Origin: a virus | Direction: 5' to 3' (one strand) | DNA length: 24,960 bases | Virus record (IMG/VR): IMGVR_UViG_3300037847_005195 | Coordinates: 455 to 25,414 of that record | Part shown: piece after piece, positions 8,891-16,138 of the stretch | Layout: each line of letters starts with the position of its first letter | How positions within the stretch are numbered: position 1 is the first letter of the stretch | Position numbers and translations under genes: made by a program | The notes under the pieces: generated by a model | The model's database searches: none | What the model was told of the DNA's origin: nothing | What the model saw: the letters and a program-made list of their open reading frames with translations, nothing else

Positions 8891-9218
8891 GAGTGGGTCC
8901 ACTCCCTTCTTTTGGCTCATAGATGGCCCTGAGATCGTCGAAAAACGTCCCGATGGTTGTCCTGGCCTCCATTGTGCGGTGCAGCCTTTCGTTGTCATCT
9001 TCGCGGTCTTCGACCTGAGAGCGACCAGCATCTTTACCCTTCTCGAAGCTTTCCTTCAAATCGAAGGGGAGCTGCTCGTTTCGTATCCGTCTAAGGTCCC
9101 TCTGGACTACCGACAAAATCATGTCGGTCGAATTGCCCCCGTCATTGAGGGCGATATCCTGCCTAGCGTCTTTTATGTCCCTGGCAAGTTGAGACAATGC
9201 TATTTCAGTTTGTGTCAT
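8883..9218 (-). CDS. hypothetical helical protein next to endolysin (111 aa)
   Basis: Highly charged and mostly helical: ALSQLARDIKDARQDIAL at the start, then RDLRRIRNEQLPFDLKESFE, and a Glu/Arg-rich stretch (VEDREDDNERLHRTMEARTT) with coiled-coil character. There is no signal peptide, lipobox or membrane segment, so it is not a classical Rz/Rz1 spanin. It sits between the lysozyme-like gene (39-bp gap) and the 30-residue membrane peptide (8-bp overlap); a lysis-related role is only positional inference. Confidence 0.6.
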   Translation of the reverse strand: MTQTEIALSQLARDIKDARQDIALNDGGNSTDMILSVVQRDLRRIRNEQLPFDLKESFEKGKDAGRSQVEDREDDNERLHRTMEARTTIGTFFDDLRAIYEPKEGSGPTHG

Positions 9219-9257
9219 ATATTTTTTGAATTATGCCTCTACCTTAACCAGTAAAAG

Positions 9258-9614
9258 CTAGTTGTCAAACTCTTTCTTAACTTTCTCCCAGTAGGGCAAA
9301 GTTGAATCCTTGTAGGCTCCTCGCGGGCCTCCGTTGTGGGTTCTCGCAATGAACTCTTCGCGAGACATGCCCTTAGGCCGCCTGGAATTGCCGCAATAGC
9401 GTTCCACGTAAGCAGCGAATATCTCCACCGCCTTGAAGGGGTCGAACGCATCCTCGTGCGTCCAGTTTTCCCCAGACCACTCAGCCGCATCCTGCACATA
9501 GGCAGAATGCAACTGGAGAATTCCAAAGGCTAGGCCGTTGTCTCCGACCGCCCCAGGATTTCCTTCTGACTCGACCGCAATCAATGCGGTTAACAATAAT
9601 ATCCAATCAATCAT
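9258..9614 (-). CDS. endolysin: lysozyme-like / lytic transglycosylase (SLT fold)
   Basis: A 118-residue compact muramidase-fold protein. ALIAVESEGNPGAVGDNGLA followed by FGILQLH is the catalytic-Glu motif of SLT/goose-type enzymes (Glu in AVESEG, then the G-x-x-Q-L strand); it is followed by AVEIFAAYVERYC, and HNGGPRGAY provides the second conserved block. Such enzymes cut the MurNAc-GlcNAc bond of peptidoglycan. The N-terminus (MIDWILLLTALIAV) is hydrophobic but coincides with the first helix of the fold, so it need not be a signal anchor. It heads a three-gene group with a helical protein and a membrane peptide, so host lysis is the likely role. Confidence 0.85.
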   Translation of the reverse strand: MIDWILLLTALIAVESEGNPGAVGDNGLAFGILQLHSAYVQDAAEWSGENWTHEDAFDPFKAVEIFAAYVERYCGNSRRPKGMSREEFIARTHNGGPRGAYKDSTLPYWEKVKKEFDN

Positions 9615-9645
9615 TTTTTATTAGTTCGTTAGTGGTTACACCCCG

Positions 9646-9679
9646 AAACCCCGCACTTCTGAGGTGCAGGGCAGGGTTT
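9646..9679 (-). terminator. imperfect hairpin between the 81-aa gene and endolysin
   Basis: On the minus strand AAACC pairs with GGTTT outside and GCAC with GTGC inside, closing a loop of CTCAGAA. It lies in the 83-base gap before the endolysin gene. There is no strong U-tract, so it may be an attenuator or mRNA-stabilising stem that lowers endolysin expression relative to the genes upstream. Confidence 0.45.
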
Positions 9680-9697
9680 GGTTTTATCTGTTATCAA

Positions 9698-9943
9698 TCA
9701 TTTGTCTCCTTTCGGTTCAAATTTGAGGGAGTGTATTGCGGGAGACCCGTAATAGGTCCCTATCTCTGCGGTGACTTCACGGCCCTCCGAGCTGCTGCTG
9801 AGGGCGTAAGCATGCATGCTGTCTGGTAACGTTCTACATGTCCAGCCGTCAATTTTCATTATCCACCTGGGATTCCCGTGCCTTGAGCTTGGGAGCCTTT
9901 TCAGGTTGGTTATCTTGCCCTTGTGTCTTGTTATATTTTTCAT
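9698..9943 (-). CDS. hypothetical protein (81 aa, basic N-terminus)
   Basis: No recognised family. The first 25 residues are strongly basic (KNITRHKGKITNLKRLPSSR), followed by a beta-rich part with WIMKIDGWTCRTLPD and the end EIGTYYGSPAIHSLKFE. The start overlaps the upstream gene by 4 bp (ATGA). An AAAGGAG just before its stop is followed by ATGATTGAT, but that frame closes after five codons. Confidence 0.65.
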   Translation of the reverse strand: MKNITRHKGKITNLKRLPSSRHGNPRWIMKIDGWTCRTLPDSMHAYALSSSSEGREVTAEIGTYYGSPAIHSLKFEPKGDK

Positions 9944-10380
9944 TCTGCTGCTTCTCTAACTTCGTTGGTTATGGTTTCTGGATCTTCGTAAACCGAGCGG
10001 TACGCCCGAAAGAATTTATCCGTTGCTTTGTGATGGGCGTAGTATCCCGTGATCTCTCCGCTGAGCCTCTCTGACATTGAGAAGAACTCAACGCCGTTGA
10101 GAGTGTGCCAGCATCGAGGCGGCAAGACATTGAGCTGTTCGTCAAATTCGTCCTGGCTGGACAGCTCCCAGTCTTTGCAATATTTCGCTCGTTGTGCTGC
10201 AACTACCTGGTTTGTCGCGTCATTCAGTTCAAAGATTTGAGTTCCTAGGTATTTTTCTTTAAGTTCAGGAACCGTTTTCCCTGAATACCGGCAGACAAGC
10301 TGCCCGCCCTCGTTTTTGAGAAGGGTCGCTATGCCAGTCGTGTGCGGCCGGTAAAGAACCAATTCTATTTCAGTTGTCAT
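9940..10380 (-). CDS. hypothetical protein (146 aa)
   Basis: Start chosen at ATG 10380 (MTTEIELVLYRPH), which lies in the short gap after the upstream gene; a longer frame would run through that gene. Features: a beta N-terminus (TTEIELVLYRPHTTGIATLL), a central helical part with CKDWELSSQDEFDEQLNVLP, and a C-terminal part WHTLNGVEFFSMSERLSG followed by Tyr/Phe-rich helices. No domain recognised. It is coupled to the downstream gene by an ATGA overlap. Confidence 0.65.
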   Translation of the reverse strand: MTTEIELVLYRPHTTGIATLLKNEGGQLVCRYSGKTVPELKEKYLGTQIFELNDATNQVVAAQRAKYCKDWELSSQDEFDEQLNVLPPRCWHTLNGVEFFSMSERLSGEITGYYAHHKATDKFFRAYRSVYEDPETITNEVREAAE

Positions 10381-10400
10381 ATTGTCGTTAGGGTTAAGGG

Positions 10401-10694
10401 TTAATCCATTAATGGCGAAACGGGACCTCCTTCGGGGAAGAGCATTATCAGACCAATGTCTGAACACTCTCCGTAGTATCCCGAAACTTCACACTTTCTC
10501 CAGGCGGTGCATTCAGTTAGCTCAGCCCAGTGGGCAGAGGCAGCTCCCTGCCTTTTCGCACTAGCAAAAGCCTCATTTTCGAAGGCTAGAATTTCCTCGG
10601 ACTCCGTAGTGCTGAGTCCCGTAGCATCACCGTTTATCAGATAGGGCAGAAAGTCTCGCCCTATGGTGTATTCGAATAGATCAGTTTTTCTCAT
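10401..10694 (-). CDS. hypothetical protein (97 aa)
   Basis: The N-terminus (FEYTIGRDFLPYLINGDATG, then LSTTESEEI) and the C-terminal CEVSGYYGECSDI segment resemble small uncharacterised proteins common on plasmids and phages, where a DFLPYLINGD-like helix is followed by a C-x(6)-C strand. Role unknown. An unusual TTGACA-containing element lies 20-50 bp upstream. There is no Shine-Dalgarno sequence before the ATG. Confidence 0.7.
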   Translation of the reverse strand: MRKTDLFEYTIGRDFLPYLINGDATGLSTTESEEILAFENEAFASAKRQGAASAHWAELTECTAWRKCEVSGYYGECSDIGLIMLFPEGGPVSPLMD

Positions 10695-10714
10695 ATATTT
10701 GTCGTTGTTATTTG

Positions 10715-10743
10715 GTTCAATCAGAGTTTTCTCTAAATGTCAA
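10715..10743 (-). promoter_or_regulatory. TTGACA-N16-ATTGAAC element (weak promoter candidate)
   Basis: A perfect -35-like TTGACA (10738-10743) is followed by 16 bases and ATTGAAC, directly upstream of the gene starting at 10694. The same arrangement occurs at 11441-11469 and 12431-12460. No TATAAT-like -10 is present, so host sigma-70 would use it weakly unless helped. Confidence 0.35.
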
Positions 10744-10760
10744 TAGCTATTTTTGCAAAC

Positions 10761-10970
10761 TCAATAATACGTTTTAATTCTTTCTACGAAAAGCTTCGGA
10801 TCAGGGTCTCCCACTTCCTCCGTAATTCTCCTATAGACGGTTTTAACCGCTTGATCCCTAGTAAATCCTCCCGAGTATATCTTGTGGGATTCGCACCTAG
10901 CGGTAAACATTATCACTTTTTGCAAGGGGCAAGGCTCCTTGTCGCGTTCCACCGTTACATAATAAGTCAT
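10761..10970 (-). CDS. hypothetical protein (69 aa)
   Basis: Small basic protein (MTYYVTVERDKEPCPLQKVI, later TRDQAVKTVYRRITEEVG) of unknown function, with a beta start and a helical second half. ATG at 10970 is preceded by AACGAAAGGATAAAGCA, a Shine-Dalgarno-type leader shared with several other small genes in this unit. Confidence 0.65.
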   Translation of the reverse strand: MTYYVTVERDKEPCPLQKVIMFTARCESHKIYSGGFTRDQAVKTVYRRITEEVGDPDPKLFVERIKTYY

Positions 10971-10994
10971 TGCTTTATCCTTTCGTTTTTCTAG

Positions 10995-11216
10995 TTAATT
11001 CAAAAAAGTTCGCCGGTCTGCAAGTGGCTTAAATATCTGGACCGCTTCTTCGACGGAGAAAAACGCTCCCAACGCACCTTGTTCGGGATTCCGCTCATCA
11101 GTGACTTTGAACTTCGTGACCCCAGAGGGGGTCTTAAACTCCTCGATAATAAAAGTGGGGAGAGTTCGCTTGCGACCGAACTGCCCTCCGGTTTTCGTGT
11201 AATTTATTTCCTGCAT
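10995..11216 (-). CDS. hypothetical protein (73 aa)
   Basis: Basic N-terminus (YTKTGGQFGRKRTLPTF), then strands IIEEFKTPSGVTKFKVTD and a helix SVEEAVQIFKPLADRR. It resembles small single-domain proteins of plasmid and phage accessory regions, but no named family is recognised. Gaps to neighbours are about 20 bp and contain no recognisable promoter. Confidence 0.6.
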   Translation of the reverse strand: MQEINYTKTGGQFGRKRTLPTFIIEEFKTPSGVTKFKVTDERNPEQGALGAFFSVEEAVQIFKPLADRRTFLN

Positions 11217-11236
11217 AATACTGTTATAGATTTGAA

Positions 11237-11431
11237 TTATCGCTCAACACTTTCGGCTTCTTCGACCCATTGGGCGAGTGTCAACTGATTGAGATATGCA
11301 ACCCAAACCGTCGAATTGTCAATGCTGTAACCGCTTTGGGCGTCAACGAAGTGAAAGCATCCGGCTCCCCGTCGACCTTCGACCTTTAGGCCGGTGTGTT
11401 TGATTGCTGAATTGATCGTTGACTTTTTCAT
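11237..11431 (-). CDS. hypothetical protein (64 aa)
   Basis: Begins MKKSTINSAIKHTGLKVEGR and contains GAGCFHFVDAQSGYSIDNST followed by VWVAYLNQLTLAQWVEEAE. This pattern is familiar from small uncharacterised accessory proteins of phages and plasmids; function unknown. It is preceded by a TTGACA-N16-ATTGGAC element (11441-11469) and then by a hammerhead ribozyme. Confidence 0.7.
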   Translation of the reverse strand: MKKSTINSAIKHTGLKVEGRRGAGCFHFVDAQSGYSIDNSTVWVAYLNQLTLAQWVEEAESVER

Positions 11432-11440
11432 AGAATGCTA

Positions 11441-11469
11441 GTCCAATCAGAAAAATTTAAGTTTGTCAA
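11441..11469 (-). promoter_or_regulatory. TTGACA-N16-ATTGGAC element (weak promoter candidate)
   Basis: TTGACA (11464-11469), 16 bases, then ATTGGACTAG, ending ten bases before the ATG at 11431. It is placed between a hammerhead ribozyme and the next gene, so it could restart transcription after RNA cleavage. It lacks a good -10 box. Confidence 0.35.
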
Positions 11470-11489
11470 TAGTTATCTTAAATTAATTT

Positions 11490-11548
11490 GGTTTGTCTCA
11501 TCAGTTACCAGGTAACCGTCCTGGCAAGACCCCTTACGGGGTTTCAAC
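11490..11548 (-). ncRNA. type II hammerhead ribozyme, copy 1 (overlaps gene 3' end)
   Basis: On the minus strand: GTT, GAAA core, stem III CCCC-GTAA-GGGG (GNRA loop), the GTC cleavage triplet (11530-11528), stem I TTGCCAGG/CCTGGTAA, CTGATGA core (11504-11498), then GAC (11497-11495) to pair with GTT as a three-pair stem II including one G-U. Predicted scission lies between 11528 and 11527. The loop of stem I contains GGTT, which can pair with AACC at 11493-11490. The upstream gene's last codons run into the ribozyme and its TAA stop lies within the GTAA loop. Confidence 0.85.
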
Positions 11549-12400
11549 TATGTCAATAAGCTTTGGCCGCTTATAGAAAGCGAACTTACTATCATCAGGG
11601 GCGGGACTAAAGGTGGCCCTTATCTCAATCCGGTCGCCCCTTTCGGCGGCAGCCCCAGAGGGGACCGTGCCCCAGCATTTACGACCGTCATCGAGCTGAA
11701 TAAGGCATTTCAACGACCTGCCCCAGTCGCTTTCGACGCTTTTAAGGCTCAATATTTTGCCCTCGATTTCGTAGCGACCGCTCTCCCAATCCGGTGCATT
11801 TTTCCGCATTGCTTCATCCGCTTCTTTTCGAGCCTTAATCTTGGCCTCTTTCTCGGGAGACTCCTCAACTATTTTGCGAACGAAAGCGATCTGCTTCCGG
11901 CTCAAGCTGAAATACCTAGACAGTTTGCGAAGCATGTCTTCCGCGATCCCCCGCTCCCAACTTCCAACTGCTTCGTTATTGCAGGCAGCCTCCAGGAAAC
12001 TGATAACCGGCTTCCACCTCCAGGACCGCCTCATGGCTTTTCGAAGACCACTGATATAAAGGCGGTTTTCCTTGTGAGCGGCGATTATCTCGCTCGCAGA
12101 CTCGAATTCGAGCCTGTTAACACAGGTGCTGCCTATAACGACATGCTCCCCGCTTGGCTCGTGTTCAAAAACCGCCCCTGCCTTGAGGGCAGCCCCGCAA
12201 TGGGTGCAGTGATCAATGCTATATCCTTCCGATTGAACGGCCCGCTGCAGATATGGAGGCAGTGGGTCAATAGGGTCCCCGCCCCCGCCATCTTCGTCAT
12301 CGCTGGCATAAATAACGCGATGATCGAAAGCCTCGATAAAATTATAAGCCTGGGGATCGAACCCCCCGCTTAGTCGATGCTTTGAAATTTTTAAATCCAT
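11534..12400 (-). CDS. hypothetical zinc-finger protein (288 aa)
   Basis: N-terminal third: an acidic, Gly-rich stretch, then a C4-like zinc motif, HCTHCGAALK near residue 65 and a second arm VVIGSTCVNRL near residue 92, an arrangement found in uncharacterised actinophage and plasmid proteins. The middle (residues ~100-205) is helical with a Lys/Glu-rich stretch (EKEAKIKARKEADEAMRK). The C-terminal ~75 residues look like a small OB-type beta barrel (LIQLDDGRKCWGTVPSG, GDRIEIRATF). Nucleic-acid binding is plausible. ATG at 12400 has an AACGAAAGGA leader. The C-terminal residues VETP and the stop are encoded by hammerhead copy 1. Confidence 0.75.
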   Translation of the reverse strand: MDLKISKHRLSGGFDPQAYNFIEAFDHRVIYASDDEDGGGGDPIDPLPPYLQRAVQSEGYSIDHCTHCGAALKAGAVFEHEPSGEHVVIGSTCVNRLEFESASEIIAAHKENRLYISGLRKAMRRSWRWKPVISFLEAACNNEAVGSWERGIAEDMLRKLSRYFSLSRKQIAFVRKIVEESPEKEAKIKARKEADEAMRKNAPDWESGRYEIEGKILSLKSVESDWGRSLKCLIQLDDGRKCWGTVPSGAAAERGDRIEIRATFSPAPDDSKFAFYKRPKLIDIVETP

Positions 12401-12430
12401 AATTTAGTATCCTTTCGTTATCTTTGACTA

Positions 12431-12460
12431 GTCTAATAAGAGAAAACGGGCAATTGTCAA
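12431..12460 (-). promoter_or_regulatory. TTGACA-N17-ATTAGAC element (weak promoter candidate)
   Basis: TTGACA (12455-12460) overlaps the TGA stop of the upstream gene and is followed after 17 bases by ATTAGACTAG, close to the 11441 element (ATTGGACTAG). It occupies the one gap in this stretch of genes where no hammerhead is found. No convincing -10 hexamer. Confidence 0.35.
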
Positions 12461-12675
12461 GCTTTATTCCCTAGACGAATAATTTCCTTTTCAATTTCCT
12501 CAGCCTGCTTTGCTCTTCTGCGAGCAAATTCTTTTAGGGTCTCCTTTTCAGGATCGAAACTTTCTTCCGGCAAAATTTGCTTTGCAACTTCGCTTTCGTT
12601 TCCGAGAAGGCGGCCTAGCAATGCCAGCTCCCTAATCGTAAATCCAGTCCAGGTTTTTGTTTCGAGAATGTTCAT
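12457..12675 (-). CDS. hypothetical protein (72 aa, charged helical)
   Basis: ATG at 12675 (MNILETKTWTG) has a leader AACGAAAGGAAAAGAA with a Shine-Dalgarno-like AAAGGA. The longer frame beginning at 12714 was rejected because its start is the ATG inside the hammerhead CTGATGA core. The protein has a short ELALLGRLLG segment and a long charged helix (KETLKEFARRRAKQAEEIEK). No family recognised. Confidence 0.7.
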   Translation of the reverse strand: MNILETKTWTGFTIRELALLGRLLGNESEVAKQILPEESFDPEKETLKEFARRRAKQAEEIEKEIIRLGNKA

Positions 12676-12701
12676 TTCTTTTCCTTTCGTTATCGTTAAT
12701 T

Positions 12702-12763
12702 TAGCCTGTCTCATCAGCCACCAGAAGGCTACCCTGGCAGGACCCCCTTGCGGGGGTTTCGAC
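12702..12763 (-). ncRNA. type II hammerhead ribozyme, copy 2
   Basis: Minus strand order: GTC (12763-12761), GAAA, stem III CCCCC-GCAA-GGGGG, cleavage triplet GTC (12743-12741), stem I CTGCCAGGG/TTCTGGTGG with loop TAGCC, CTGATGA core (12717-12711), GAC (12710-12708). Stem II is GAC/GTC. Scission is predicted between 12741 and 12740. The loop TAGCC is complementary to GGCTA at 12706-12702; both sides differ from the other copies in a compensating way. It begins two bases after the stop of the 116-residue gene. Confidence 0.9.
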
Positions 12764-12764
12764 T

Positions 12765-13115
12765 TTAATAATCGAGACCGTGCTCAGCATCGTATCTCTC
12801 ACGAGCGGCCATATGAGGCTCTTCGATTCCGTAAGCGCGAGAACCATAACGTGGTGGAACGCTTATCCAATGCTCAACGTTGATCACTAGCTTCTCGTTA
12901 ACTCGATCGGCAAGTTTCTGAGCTTCTTCCTCGGTATCGTAAGGTTTAAAGTGACCCATGCGAGATCCATCAGACTCTTCACCAATCACGAAGTATTTCT
13001 CTCCGTAAGTGTGACCCTCTGGGTTTCCTGGCTCGGCATTTTCTGGGTTGCTCCAAAGTACAACCACTTGCGGTCGAACAAAAGCGAATTCGATTTTTTG
13101 TTCTGTGCTGGTCAT
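12765..13115 (-). CDS. hypothetical protein (116 aa)
   Basis: The segments KYFVIGEESDGSRMGHFKPY and DTEEEAQKLADRVN, then HWISVPPRYGSRAYG, recall small accessory proteins of plasmids and phages in which a beta hairpin is followed by an EEAQxxADR helix; function unknown. ATG at 13115 is preceded by AACGAAAGGAGACAATACCA, with a good AAAGGAG Shine-Dalgarno sequence. The gene is flanked by a hammerhead ribozyme on each side. Confidence 0.7.
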   Translation of the reverse strand: MTSTEQKIEFAFVRPQVVVLWSNPENAEPGNPEGHTYGEKYFVIGEESDGSRMGHFKPYDTEEEAQKLADRVNEKLVINVEHWISVPPRYGSRAYGIEEPHMAARERYDAEHGLDY

Positions 13116-13145
13116 TGGTATTGTCTCCTTTCGTTGTCGTTAATT

Positions 13146-13206
13146 TGGCTTATCTCATCAGTCGCTGGTAGCCATCTCAGCGAGACCCCCTTGCGGGGGT
13201 TTCGAT
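13146..13206 (-). ncRNA. type II hammerhead ribozyme, copy 3
   Basis: Minus strand order: ATC (13206-13204), GAAA, stem III CCCCC-GCAA-GGGGG, cleavage triplet GTC (13186-13184), stem I TCGCTG/CAGCGA with a larger ten-base loop, CTGATGA core (13161-13155), GAT (13154-13152). Stem II is GAT/ATC, a compensatory change relative to GAC/GTC. Scission is predicted between 13184 and 13183. Loop bases TGGCT pair with AGCCA at 13150-13146. The ribozyme starts on the last base of the TAA stop of the 58-residue gene. Confidence 0.9.
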
Positions 13207-13382
13207 TATCGACCCGACTCGATCAAAAGTTCTTCGAAAGCGTCGATGAACGCATCAGCCGCACCCTCTAAAGAATAACCGAGACCCTCAATGGGATTTG
13301 GATCGAACCCTTCAATATCGAATTCGTCATCGAAATCATTTTCGATAAATTCGCCCGTTGTGTTTTCTGTTAAACCGCTCAT
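13206..13382 (-). CDS. hypothetical protein (58 aa, very acidic)
   Basis: ATG at 13382 (MSGLTENTTGEF) has the leader AACGAAAGGAAAAACA; the longer frame from 13430 would begin within the hammerhead core and is rejected. The product is strongly acidic (IENDFDDEFDIEGFDPNP) with a C-terminal helix (DAFIDAFEELLIESG). Function unknown; an acidic decoy or host-protein-binding peptide is possible but unsupported. Flanked by hammerhead ribozymes. Confidence 0.65.
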   Translation of the reverse strand: MSGLTENTTGEFIENDFDDEFDIEGFDPNPIEGLGYSLEGAADAFIDAFEELLIESGR

Positions 13383-13410
13383 TGTGTTTTTCCTTTCGTT
13401 GTCGTTAACT

Positions 13411-13472
13411 TGGCTTATCTCATCAGTCACCAGGGAGCCACCCTAATGAGACCCCCTTTCGGGGGTTTCGAT
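13411..13472 (-). ncRNA. type II hammerhead ribozyme, copy 4
   Basis: Minus strand order: ATC (13472-13470), GAAA, stem III CCCCC-GAAA-GGGGG, cleavage triplet GTC (13452-13450), nine-pair stem I TCATTAGGG/CCCTGGTGA with loop TGGCT, CTGATGA core (13426-13420), GAT (13419-13417). Stem II is GAT/ATC. Scission is predicted between 13450 and 13449. TGGCT in the loop pairs with AGCCA at 13415-13411. It begins one base after the TAA stop of the 105-residue gene. Confidence 0.92.
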
Positions 13473-13473
13473 T

Positions 13474-13791
13474 TTAAAGGTCGTTATAAAAAGCGAGAAC
13501 AGTTTCCTTGTCATAAAAATCATACGACCAACCATGCTGTTCCAAAACGGATGCAAGCTTCTCGTTTAAAACGCAATCTACCTGGTAAACCTCCCAATCT
13601 TCGAAGTCGTTTGACCCATTTTTGTTGATCTTCCATTGACCGGTCAAATCTTCCCCCAGGAAAGAGTAGCCGGTAAACCAAATCCCCTGGCGGTCATCTC
13701 CATAGAATTCGGCCTGGGTTTTCATCTCCAAATTAGGGTCGATCTCCCTGAGCTTTTTAATCATTGTTTCGGTTTTTTTAATCTGTCTCAT
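13474..13791 (-). CDS. hypothetical protein (105 aa)
   Basis: ATG at 13791 places the start about 31 bases after hammerhead copy 5, the same distance as for neighbouring genes; an internal ATG at 13764 is the alternative. Beta-rich middle (IWFTGYSFLGEDLTGQWKIN) and helical C-terminus (KLASVLEQHGWSYDFYDKET). No family recognised. Its first codons ATGAGACAG echo the ribozyme sequence (CTG)ATGAGACAG, possibly by chance. Confidence 0.65.
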   Translation of the reverse strand: MRQIKKTETMIKKLREIDPNLEMKTQAEFYGDDRQGIWFTGYSFLGEDLTGQWKINKNGSNDFEDWEVYQVDCVLNEKLASVLEQHGWSYDFYDKETVLAFYNDL

Positions 13792-13815
13792 AATCTTGTC
13801 GTTTTGTCGTTAATT

Positions 13816-13875
13816 TGGCTTGTCTCATCAGTTACCAGGGAGCCACCCTGATAAGACCCCTTGCGGGGTTTCGAC
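13816..13875 (-). ncRNA. type II hammerhead ribozyme, copy 5
   Basis: Minus strand order: GTC (13875-13873), GAAA, stem III CCCC-GCAA-GGGG, cleavage triplet GTC (13857-13855), nine-pair stem I TTATCAGGG/CCCTGGTAA with loop TGGCT, CTGATGA core (13831-13825), GAC (13824-13822). Stem II is GAC/GTC. Scission is predicted between 13855 and 13854. The loop can pair with AGCCA at 13820-13816. It begins one base after the stop of the 80-residue gene. Confidence 0.92.
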
Positions 13876-13876
13876 G

Positions 13877-14119
13877 TTACAATTCAGAGGCCCAGCCATC
13901 AAAGGCATCCGTTTTAATGCCAAACCTGCAGCCATCCTCGTCAATGACCCATTCGACAGGCTCATCAGCGGAATAAGGGTGGCTAAGCCACGGTTCGCCC
14001 GTTCTGACAATTTTGCAATCGAAATCGAAACCGCCCAGGTAATGAGTGAATTCGTAGGTTTTGCCCTCGTATTCAATGGTTTTTGGGCCGCTGTTTTTGA
14101 TGTCTTCTATTGAGATCAT
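13877..14119 (-). CDS. hypothetical protein (80 aa)
   Basis: ATG at 14119 (MISIEDIKNSG) was chosen; the longer frame to 14176 would include hammerhead copy 6. Beta-rich small protein with TIEYEGKTYEFTHYLGGFDF and WVIDEDGCRFGIKTDAFDGW. No family recognised. The leader AACGACAACAGAAAGAATACCA is a variant of the AACGAAAGGA leader of its neighbours. Flanked by hammerhead ribozymes. Confidence 0.65.
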   Translation of the reverse strand: MISIEDIKNSGPKTIEYEGKTYEFTHYLGGFDFDCKIVRTGEPWLSHPYSADEPVEWVIDEDGCRFGIKTDAFDGWASEL

Positions 14120-14145
14120 TGGTATTCTTTCTGTTGTCGTTAACT

Positions 14146-14205
14146 TGGCTTGTCTCATCAGCTGCCAGGGAGCCACCCTGACAGGACGCTTTTCAGCGTT
14201 TCGAC
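14146..14205 (-). ncRNA. type II hammerhead ribozyme, copy 6
   Basis: Minus strand order: GTC (14205-14203), GAAA, stem III CGCT-GAAA-AGCG, cleavage triplet GTC (14187-14185), nine-pair stem I CTGTCAGGG/CCCTGGCAG with loop TGGCT, CTGATGA core (14161-14155), GAC (14154-14152). Stem III has a wholly different sequence from the C/G-only stems of the other copies yet keeps pairing and a GNRA loop. Scission is predicted between 14185 and 14184. The loop pairs with AGCCA at 14150-14146. It directly follows the TGA of the kinase gene. Confidence 0.92.
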
Positions 14206-14898
14206 TCAGTCGTTGTCAATTATCCTGACCAAATCAGCCTGCCCTCTGATGGCCTCGAATGAGGCAGCAATGGTAGCATGTTTCGACCGTACAATTGATT
14301 CCGGCACGGTGCGGGTTCTGTCCTGGTTCCGCTGCAGGGCGGTAGCTAAGGAGCATCGAACCATGACAATTTCCACCTTAAAACCGGCCTGCCGTGCCTG
14401 ACTCATCAAAGCCTGGTATTTGGCCGCATTGCTGCCAGTGCCGTCATAGACGAATGACCGAGTGCCAGCAATGGCCTCGAAAAATTGCTTCTGCAGCCGC
14501 TGCCGGCTTTCCTCATGAACCGCCATTGGGTTTTTGGGGTCGTATCCTGGCAAGGTTCGCTTGATCCGGTCGCAATCCAGAACGGTCTCAATCTGGATAT
14601 CCCGCTTTCTAACGTAACTTTTCCCGCTGCCAGGGCCGCCCATAAGGAAGACCGCCCTCGATGCTCTCCCCCTTCTGACCTCAGCCATTTGGGGGCGGCT
14701 TTGAAAGTTAACGCATACCAGGATTGCCCAGATAGCCATCAAAGGGGAGAAGGCGGCCGCTGCTAGACTGTGGTCGTCCAGCAACTCGATAAGAAAAGAG
14801 GTCCATAAAAACCCCTGAAACGCTACCAGGATGGCAGCGGTCAAAACCAGCCCCGTTACCAGGGCGGCGATCGTTTTTGTTGTCGTCGTGTTTTTCAT
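14206..14898 (-). CDS. membrane-anchored P-loop kinase (AAA_33 / zeta-toxin-like)
   Basis: A 230-residue protein. Two N-terminal membrane segments (TIAALVTGLVLTAAILVAFQ, about residues 9-28, and AAAFSPLMAIWAILVCVNF, about 47-65) precede a cytoplasmic kinase domain with Walker A GGPGSGKS (about 87-94), an aspartate after a beta strand (VLDCDRIKRTLPG), the FVYDGTGS strand typical of zeta-toxin and polynucleotide-kinase-like AAA_33 proteins, and an Arg-rich lid (RNQDRTRTVPESI). It should transfer phosphate from ATP to a nucleotide, sugar-nucleotide or RNA end. First gene of the leftward unit, just behind the promoter at 14909-14936, hence probably early. A 5'-OH kinase acting on ribozyme products is a speculative possibility. 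Confidence 0.75.
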   Translation of the reverse strand: MKNTTTTKTIAALVTGLVLTAAILVAFQGFLWTSFLIELLDDHSLAAAAFSPLMAIWAILVCVNFQSRPQMAEVRRGRASRAVFLMGGPGSGKSYVRKRDIQIETVLDCDRIKRTLPGYDPKNPMAVHEESRQRLQKQFFEAIAGTRSFVYDGTGSNAAKYQALMSQARQAGFKVEIVMVRCSLATALQRNQDRTRTVPESIVRSKHATIAASFEAIRGQADLVRIIDND

Positions 14899-14908
14899 AA
14901 ATGCCTAA

Positions 14909-14936
14909 ATTATACGGGGCAGAAAAACGCTGTCAA
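14909..14936 (-). promoter_or_regulatory. sigma-70 promoter for the leftward unit
   Basis: Minus strand TTGACA (14931-14936), 16-base spacer, perfect TATAAT (14909-14914). The start would be near 14902, only a few bases before the ATG at 14898, so RNA from this promoter would be nearly leaderless for the kinase gene. It is the evident source of the RNA carrying the hammerhead series. Confidence 0.85.
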
Positions 14937-15022
14937 ATCTATTTTTCGAAAATCGTTACCGGGGGCAGCAAACAATGGCAGCCTTACCAGGTAGCAGGCA
15001 ACGGCAACAGCTTATCAGGTGA

Positions 15023-15083
15023 CCCCCTGCAGATGCTCACACCATGATAGCAGCAGGGGGGGTGGATGACGGGGGGAGGGGGG
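15023..15083. repeat. inverted repeat with adjoining G-runs
   Basis: CCCCCTGC (15023-15030) and GCAGGGGG (15053-15060) form an eight-pair stem, with TGCT/AGCA possible inside the loop. The right arm merges into three G-runs on the + strand (7 G at 15056-15062, 6 at 15071-15076, 6 at 15078-15083), enough guanines for a G-quadruplex. It lies in the non-coding divergent region, between the two leftward promoters. It may be a terminator, attenuator or replication-related structure. Confidence 0.5.
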
Positions 15084-15154
15084 CTATTTGATCGGTGCGA
15101 GACGATATGGTACCTATCACTCACACACTCAACGGCTTACAAATAGTCGTGTTT

Positions 15155-15340: not shown

Positions 15341-15369
15341 TTGACAGTGTTAAGTTTATCTGGTATAAT
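15341..15369 (+). promoter_or_regulatory. rightward sigma-70 promoter, packaging/virion unit
   Basis: TTGACA (15341-15346), 17-base spacer, TATAAT (15364-15369), followed by GTGCGGCG. The upstream ACTTGACA and the downstream R-T-K-C-R-G-C pattern are shared with the promoters at 18536 and 22156, so the three form a family. Predicted start about 15376, just before the ATG at 15380. Confidence 0.85.
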
Positions 15370-15938: not shown

Positions 15939-16138
15939 GCAATAAAGAAAACGAGAGCAAAAATACTTATTGGGAAAATCTTTACAAGGTTCATAATAAA
16001 ATATTTCGTCCTAAAGATCCTTTTTACAAGGACATTAAAAAGTACGAGAGTAGATTTAGAGGGGGAAACATAGATTCGACTCAGGGGGAGACTTCTGAAG
16101 ACGTGGGTGCGAATCCCACTTCCTCCACCAAAGAATGA
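15935..16138 (+). CDS. hypothetical 67-aa ORF containing the tmRNA-like element
   Basis: The ATG overlaps the stop of the preceding gene and the TGA overlaps the TerL ATG, both as ATGA. The first ~42 residues (MSNKENESKNTYWENLYKVH, then NKIFRPKDPFYKDIKKYES) look like an ordinary hydrophilic small protein. The last ~25 residues (GGNIDSTQGETSEDVGANPT...) are translated from the tRNA-like sequence at 16061-16130 and resemble the artefactual peptides often predicted across tRNA genes. It may be a small gene whose 3' end has been replaced by, or doubles as, an RNA gene. Confidence 0.5.
   Translation: MSNKENESKNTYWENLYKVHNKIFRPKDPFYKDIKKYESRFRGGNIDSTQGETSEDVGANPTSSTKE
16061..16130 (+). ncRNA. tmRNA-like tRNA-like domain (70 nt), no tag domain visible
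   Basis: GGGGGAA (16061-16067) pairs with TTCCTCC (16120-16126) as a seven-pair acceptor stem with one G-U pair at position 3-70, the alanine identity element. Discriminator A and an encoded CCA follow (16127-16130). The T-arm is GTGGG-TGCGAAT-CCCAC (16103-16119). The 5' side contains GATTCGAC (16073-16080), the conserved D-loop sequence of tmRNA, and GACG precedes the T-stem region as in tmRNA. The 33 bases between D-region and T-arm cannot form a standard anticodon arm; TCAGG/TTCTGA-type pairing would close a short helix 2. It could be a miniature tmRNA-like RNA, an attP core derived from a host ssrA gene, or a degenerate tRNA. Confidence 0.6.

Follow-up and report, generated by a model that had tools for sequence, protein, structure and literature searches.

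In the window, a 24,960-nt stretch of a viral record (IMG/VR IMGVR_UViG_3300037847_005195, positions 455 to 25,414), the TAA stop codon of a 288-aa gene lies inside the stem III tetraloop of a type II hammerhead ribozyme. The placement was proposed in a preliminary description of this DNA and is borne out by the coordinates of both the open reading frame and the structure. The predicted cut falls between 11528 and 11527, 6 nt past the stop. The arrangement appears to be the closest-fitting version of a widespread layout that leaves the stop codon on the cut message. The elements of this ribozyme (copy 1) and its gene are as follows:

11534..12400, minus strand: 288-aa gene (PHROG 18425, 4750 and 4265; homologue in L007)
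11487..11549, minus strand: ribozyme copy 1, type II hammerhead (RF02276, 30.2 bits, below the gathering score of 37)
11546..11548, minus strand: stem II 3' strand GTT of copy 1 (partner GAC at 11497-11495, one G.U)
11529..11542, minus strand: stem III hairpin of copy 1, ACCCC GTAA GGGGT
11534..11536, minus strand: TAA stop of the 288-aa gene, the final three bases of the GTAA tetraloop at 11537-11534
11490..11493, minus strand: tail AACC of copy 1, forming a pseudoknot with GGTT 11517-11514 of the stem I loop

The 288-aa gene is real, because its PHROG matches extend to residue 285 and a homologue, 51% identical, is present in L007. The protein ends in ...KLIDIVETP, and VETP is encoded by ribozyme sequence. 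VETP had been assigned to the catalytic GAAA and stem III; this holds for E-T-P, with the P codon using the G of the loop, but V is encoded by the GTT of stem II. Homologues end shortly past an RPK motif with unlike tails (FISAA in L007, KAQKL in L294, SKAVAHYAEDEEVA in L218 and L172), and the conserved part of the protein finishes before the ribozyme, indicating that VETP is a tail made from ribozyme sequence. No hammerhead match was found in L007, where a terminator-like hairpin and T run are seen by eye behind the homologous gene.

Alignment of homologues from related phages, suggested earlier as a check, thus yielded homologues with unlike tails, but the close relatives lack the gene. Specifically, related terminases were found at 15 loci, and the 288-aa gene is absent from all 15 terminase-related records; it is present in a sixteenth record that was also searched, the one holding L007. 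The close relatives therefore do not reveal how copy 1 came about. Among those relatives, a clear ribozyme is found only in G007 (L135), again with the arrangement TAG-TC-GAAA, and G006 has one weak match. The part of the window that holds the ribozyme block (~9006-15107) is a variable region absent from L129, the terminase of which is 99% identical, while the flanking pieces align with L129 at 69-94%. The ribozyme block could be transient cargo.

Copy 1 is one of six Hammerhead_II (RF02276) matches, all on the minus strand between genes, with scores of 45.0, 41.4, 39.5, 34.8, 34.4, and 30.2 bits. The gathering score of 37 bits is exceeded by three of the six; copies 1, 5, and 6 are below it. 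No further RF02276 match was found anywhere in the 38.8-kb phage record. The ribozymes follow a P-loop kinase gene, four small genes without a Pfam match, and the 288-aa gene. Below, offset denotes the first base of the stop relative to the G of GAAA; on this scale the stop of copy 1 is at +9.

14206..14898, minus strand: first gene of the ribozyme block, P-loop kinase of 230 aa (PF13671, AAA_33, 8.4e-16; PF06414, 4.4e-15)
14144..14206, minus strand: ribozyme copy 6, after the 230-aa kinase gene (stop 14208-14206); 34.8 bits, below the gathering score; offset -6
13813..13876, minus strand: ribozyme copy 5, after an 80-aa gene (stop 13879-13877); 34.4 bits, below the gathering score; offset -7
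13408..13473, minus strand: ribozyme copy 4, after a 105-aa gene (stop 13476-13474); 39.5 bits; offset -7
13143..13207, minus strand: ribozyme copy 3, after a 58-aa gene (stop 13208-13206); 41.4 bits; offset -5
12700..12764, minus strand: ribozyme copy 2, after a 116-aa gene (stop 12767-12765); 45.0 bits; offset -7
12675-12457, minus strand: 72-aa gene without a ribozyme, between copy 2 and the 288-aa gene
14936-14909, minus strand: promoter-like TTGACA-16-TATAAT before the kinase gene

The offsets agree with the earlier statement that the other five stops are at, or 0-2 bases before, the ribozyme. In copies 2-6, the stop reaches stem II, falls 1 nt short of it, or shares 1 nt with it; in copy 3, the final A of the stop is the first base of stem II.

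All six copies contain the core CUGANGA ... GAAA and the A15.1-U16.1 pair, with C or A at the cut. They have the type II architecture, with loops closing stems I and III and stem II open. The string GAAACCCC...GGGGTC occurs five times in the window, compared with 0 occurrences expected from shuffles. In an alignment of the six window copies with one hammerhead from the relative L135, 97.9% of pair cells are standard, and both sides have changed in 10 of 21 pairs; with slid partners as a control, pairing falls to 30-45%. A pseudoknot between loop I and the tail is also present, its helix being 97.1% paired with double changes in three of five pairs, one of them in copy 1. Judged from their sequences, the six copies are homologous but diverged.

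Copy 1 retains the core, the three stems, and the loop-tail pseudoknot, in which a U-A pair replaces C-G (the double change) and one of the five pairs is lost. In its stem II, the pair beside the core is G.U instead of G-C. Given this pair and the lowest score of the six, copy 1 may be slow. Upstream of its core, an out-of-frame TAG is present at offset -5.

The layout was surveyed in viral contigs gathered, among the matches listed, by pattern scans for a C/G-rich stem III. The patterns make no demand for an upstream stop, and some of them fix the loop letters GTAA or GTGA. Type II hammerheads were called by a structural finder, which returned at least 260 hits in 1.29 Mb among the matches listed and 0 in reversed sequences. 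Upstream stops were placed by a codon-usage frame caller with a margin rule. This caller was used because a longest-open-frame caller located 17 of 191 stops past the cut, several of them through wrong frames in GC-rich contigs.

The first viral set, thinned at 80% identity, contains at least 216 non-redundant hammerheads, of which 176 have a confident frame and 40 were left out. The stop is within 0-8 nt before GAAA in 142 of the 176 and further upstream in 31; of the rest, one is in the stem III hairpin (this window), one in the core, and one beyond. The combined viral set, thinned at 75% identity and enriched by design for GTAA and GTGA loops, contains at least 353 non-redundant type II hammerheads among the matches listed; 62 of the 353 without a confident frame and eight hits near contig ends were omitted. 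Of its 291 confident frames, 231 have the stop 0-8 nt before GAAA and 49 have it further upstream. In six it is in the stem III hairpin ahead of the cut, in three it is in the core, and in two it is beyond. Thus, the stop precedes GAAA in 280 of 291 and precedes the cut in 286 of 291. Three cases called as stops after the cut (L075, L076, and the second L296 case) were rejected as misassigned frames on codon-position GC or frame length. In L065 a genuine frame runs through the ribozyme, and the fifth after-cut case, L201, is ambiguous. In a sample of bacterial contigs (genome_contigs), 20 of 23 frames are confident, and the stop precedes GAAA in all 20.

In the combined viral set, the median stop-to-cut distance is 24 nt (5th-95th percentile 20-39), and the next start, located for 260 of 291, follows the end of CTGANGA by a median of 27 nt. 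No stop in this set begins between offsets -3 and +8. The distribution of spacings breaks off sharply at the ribozyme and trails away upstream, the shape that simple compactness would produce. The triplet used is also biased: TAG accounts for 70 of 142 close stops of the first viral set, compared with 192 of 825 background long ORFs at the same loci (p = 8e-10). Offset -5 is common in the combined set, and TAG makes up 55 of the 58 stops there, because the G of the stop is the outer base of a stem II pair. When the sequence around the stop is folded, a hairpin encloses the stop in about half of the close cases, mostly through weak pairings.

The stop-in-loop form recurs in other phages. Eleven contigs were found with a GTAA-loop pattern, and the best coding frame was examined in each. 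The stop is in the loop in L232, L234, L237, and L239, which form one lineage, and in L235 and L240; it is upstream in L072, L233, and L236, and L238 is ambiguous. L241 was discarded as not ribozyme-like in appearance. The L232 lineage is outside the counts over 291 frames, since its bulged stem I is missed by the finder. The combined viral set adds L299 (GTAA), L246 (GTGA), and L296 (TAG in a longer loop). L232, L235, and L246 have no RF02276 match at E <= 0.01 and were identified by finder or pattern. The proteins end in VETP (window, L246, and L299), VETA (L235 and L240), or DETP (L232 and L234), and L296 is the sole in-loop case without one of these tails. The gene products of L253 and L274, 77% identical to that of L232, end in KVEIAA where L232 has KVAIQDETP. 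At L296:3797-3900 (plus strand), the hammerhead with TAG in its stem III loop is immediately followed by a terminator-like hairpin and a T run.

GTAA loops are rare, with two in 208 hammerheads of the first viral sample among the matches listed, this window excluded. Among confident frames, the loop holds the stop in 4 of 8 GTAA loops, compared with 1 of 69 GTGA loops and 1 of 214 other loops. The difference between GTAA and GTGA loops has p = 2.5e-4, or p = 0.0019 with 3 of 7 when the window is left out; these values are only a guide, because deeper kinship persists after thinning at 75% identity. In-frame stops are thus associated with GUAA loops in the RNA.

Of 26 type III hammerheads, 15 have a confident frame; the stop starts 14-23 nt before the cut in 13 of these and after the cut in two. 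The outcome for a 3' hairpin is mixed, with one reaching the end in 10 of 26. At six type III loci (L172, L231, L178, L200, L208, and L188), a separate GC-rich hairpin stands immediately ahead of the ribozyme and has the stop of the upstream gene in its loop, which is GTAA in L172 and L231. A stop in a hairpin loop near the cut may therefore have had a second origin in type III loci.

We consider it probable that a polycistronic transcript is divided by the ribozymes into single-gene mRNAs, and that their placement leaves each upstream product with its stop and a 3' hairpin. The type II hammerhead would fold as RNA polymerase passes and cut behind the GUC at the end of stem III. Upstream, this would yield a full single-gene mRNA with its stop retained and the stem III hairpin at its 3' end. 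The downstream product would carry a 5'-OH and open with the stem I hairpin, behind which comes the next gene's ribosome-binding site. A cassette fitted tightly between stop and start would explain why most stops either touch stem II or share bases with it. In genes of the copy 1 type, the frame would cross stem II and run on past GAAA into the 5' arm of stem III, to be ended by the loop GUAA (rarely GUGA). Because the loop stop is ahead of the cut, the cut mRNA would not be a non-stop mRNA. Cleavage in the cell, protection of the 3' end by the hairpin, and a selective pressure that retains the stop in the upstream mRNA are inferred. Weighing against this reading are the possibly slow copy 1, the absence of the block from L129, the read-through frame of L065, and the two type III stops past the cut.

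Compact packing alone accounts for much of the spacing between stop and ribozyme. An alternative is that packing is neutral throughout, namely that ribozymes were inserted between tight genes and a gene that had lost its stop ran on to a chance stop in the loop. Consistent with this, the out-of-frame TAG at the modal offset -5, found in both the window and L299, looks like the relic of an earlier stop bypassed by a frame slip, and the variously ending homologues of the 288-aa protein, with a conserved part that finishes before the ribozyme, would fit as well. However, frames that enter a type II ribozyme stop in the loop in 4 of 8 GTAA cases against 2 of 283 for all other loops, and GTGA loops, which are common and offer a stop in the same register, almost never supply it. 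Neutral packing as the full explanation thus appears fairly unlikely.

A ribosome covers about 12-13 nt beyond its A site. A terminating ribosome would therefore extend over the cut site in copy 1, where it should keep stem III open; in the common layout it would mask the core together with the 5' arm of stem III. Ribosome occupancy and the active fold are thus sterically likely to exclude each other briefly at termination. The mutual exclusion of translation and cleavage proposed in the preliminary description is thus expected from the geometry, for the moment of termination. It had further been proposed that the layout is a general translation-timed switch with copy 1 as its extreme form, in which the terminating ribosome keeps the ribozyme unfolded and the cut waits on, and reports, upstream translation. 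The layout is indeed general, 231 of 291 stops end no more than 8 nt before GAAA and so lie inside the footprint, and the extreme in-loop form is seen again in other phages, but the data lend the switch itself no support. The spacing has no narrow optimum, and the analysis turned up neither a regulator nor an alternative fold. A brief block on an irreversible reaction such as cleavage would amount to a delay and not to a switch, unless ribosome traffic is dense. Moreover, in the part of PMC7858274 that deals with Bacillus subtilis, terminators a few nucleotides past stop codons are taken as a sign that RNA polymerase runs ahead of the ribosome, and short stop-to-hairpin spacing is read as uncoupled transcription. 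With RNA polymerase ahead, the ribozyme would be free to cut before the ribosome arrives. We therefore regard a translation-timed switch as unlikely.

A stronger version, an evolved ribosome-gated gene-end device in which the stop is an integral part of stem II or of the stem III tetraloop and each terminating ribosome resets the fold, is distinctly unlikely. If it were true, the message would be cut when ribosome traffic lapses, and translation of one gene would clock the mRNA of the next. That the copy 1 arrangement is peculiar to a single metagenome-assembled record, as might be suspected from one record without a second copy of the 288-aa gene and with the TAG at offset -5, is very improbable given the same in-loop layout in L232/L234/L237/L239, L235, L240, L246, and L299, some of which have no stop in the usual place in any frame.

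Other elements lie in or near the block. The kinase product resembles the polynucleotide kinase and zeta toxin families (Pfam and PHROG), and 5'-OH ends made by the ribozymes are a possible substrate for it. Two diverging promoter-like sites with perfect TTGACA and TATAAT are found near 15.3 kb (15311-15283, minus strand; 15341-15369, plus strand). A 66-70-nt RNA corresponding only to the tRNA-like part of tmRNA occurs in the window (16061-16130, plus strand, 37.1 bits), in L007 (972-1037, 65.3 bits), and in L129 (9928-9996, 45.7 bits), and was not seen in L130-L133. In the window copy, 314 model positions are missing. The RNA has a CCA end and, by our reading, the G.U pair of alanine identity. 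Such a free-standing domain could compete with host tmRNA for SmpB. It differs from the full two-piece phage tmRNA reported in the relevant part of PMC9004378.

Ever since hammerheads were discovered in bacteria and phages, their function has been an open question. The strict placement of the stop relative to the cut offers a testable clue, namely that cleavage is positioned to leave the upstream message fit for translation. Loops that also serve as stops, in which ribozyme and gene share bases, would provide a direct handle on whether translation and self-cleavage affect each other in the cell. That clustered hammerheads process long phage transcripts into single-gene mRNAs was proposed by Perreault et al. 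2011 (PMC3088659), whose account of the clusters reports three cleaved in vitro and one active in E. coli. The prophage type II hammerheads described there (RF02276) resemble those of the window in core, permutation, loop-tail pseudoknot, and tandem copies between genes. The wording 'stop codon' is absent from the main text of PMC3088659, and the paper describes no stop built into stem II or into the loop of stem III. In the open-access literature, we found no report of stops inside or abutting phage hammerheads; print elsewhere is possible.

Two other systems share part of this layout. The terminators of runaway transcription (Johnson et al. 2020), as outlined in the section on them in the review PMC7858274, also place a 3'-end hairpin within the ribosome footprint of the stop. 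An intrinsic terminator ends transcription, whereas the ribozyme would cut RNA that is still being extended into the next gene. The theta (HDV-like) ribozymes of gut phages, as presented in the corresponding part of PMC10879173, are likewise self-cleaving and used by phages, but they belong to a different class and are tied to tRNAs and recoding instead of gene ends.
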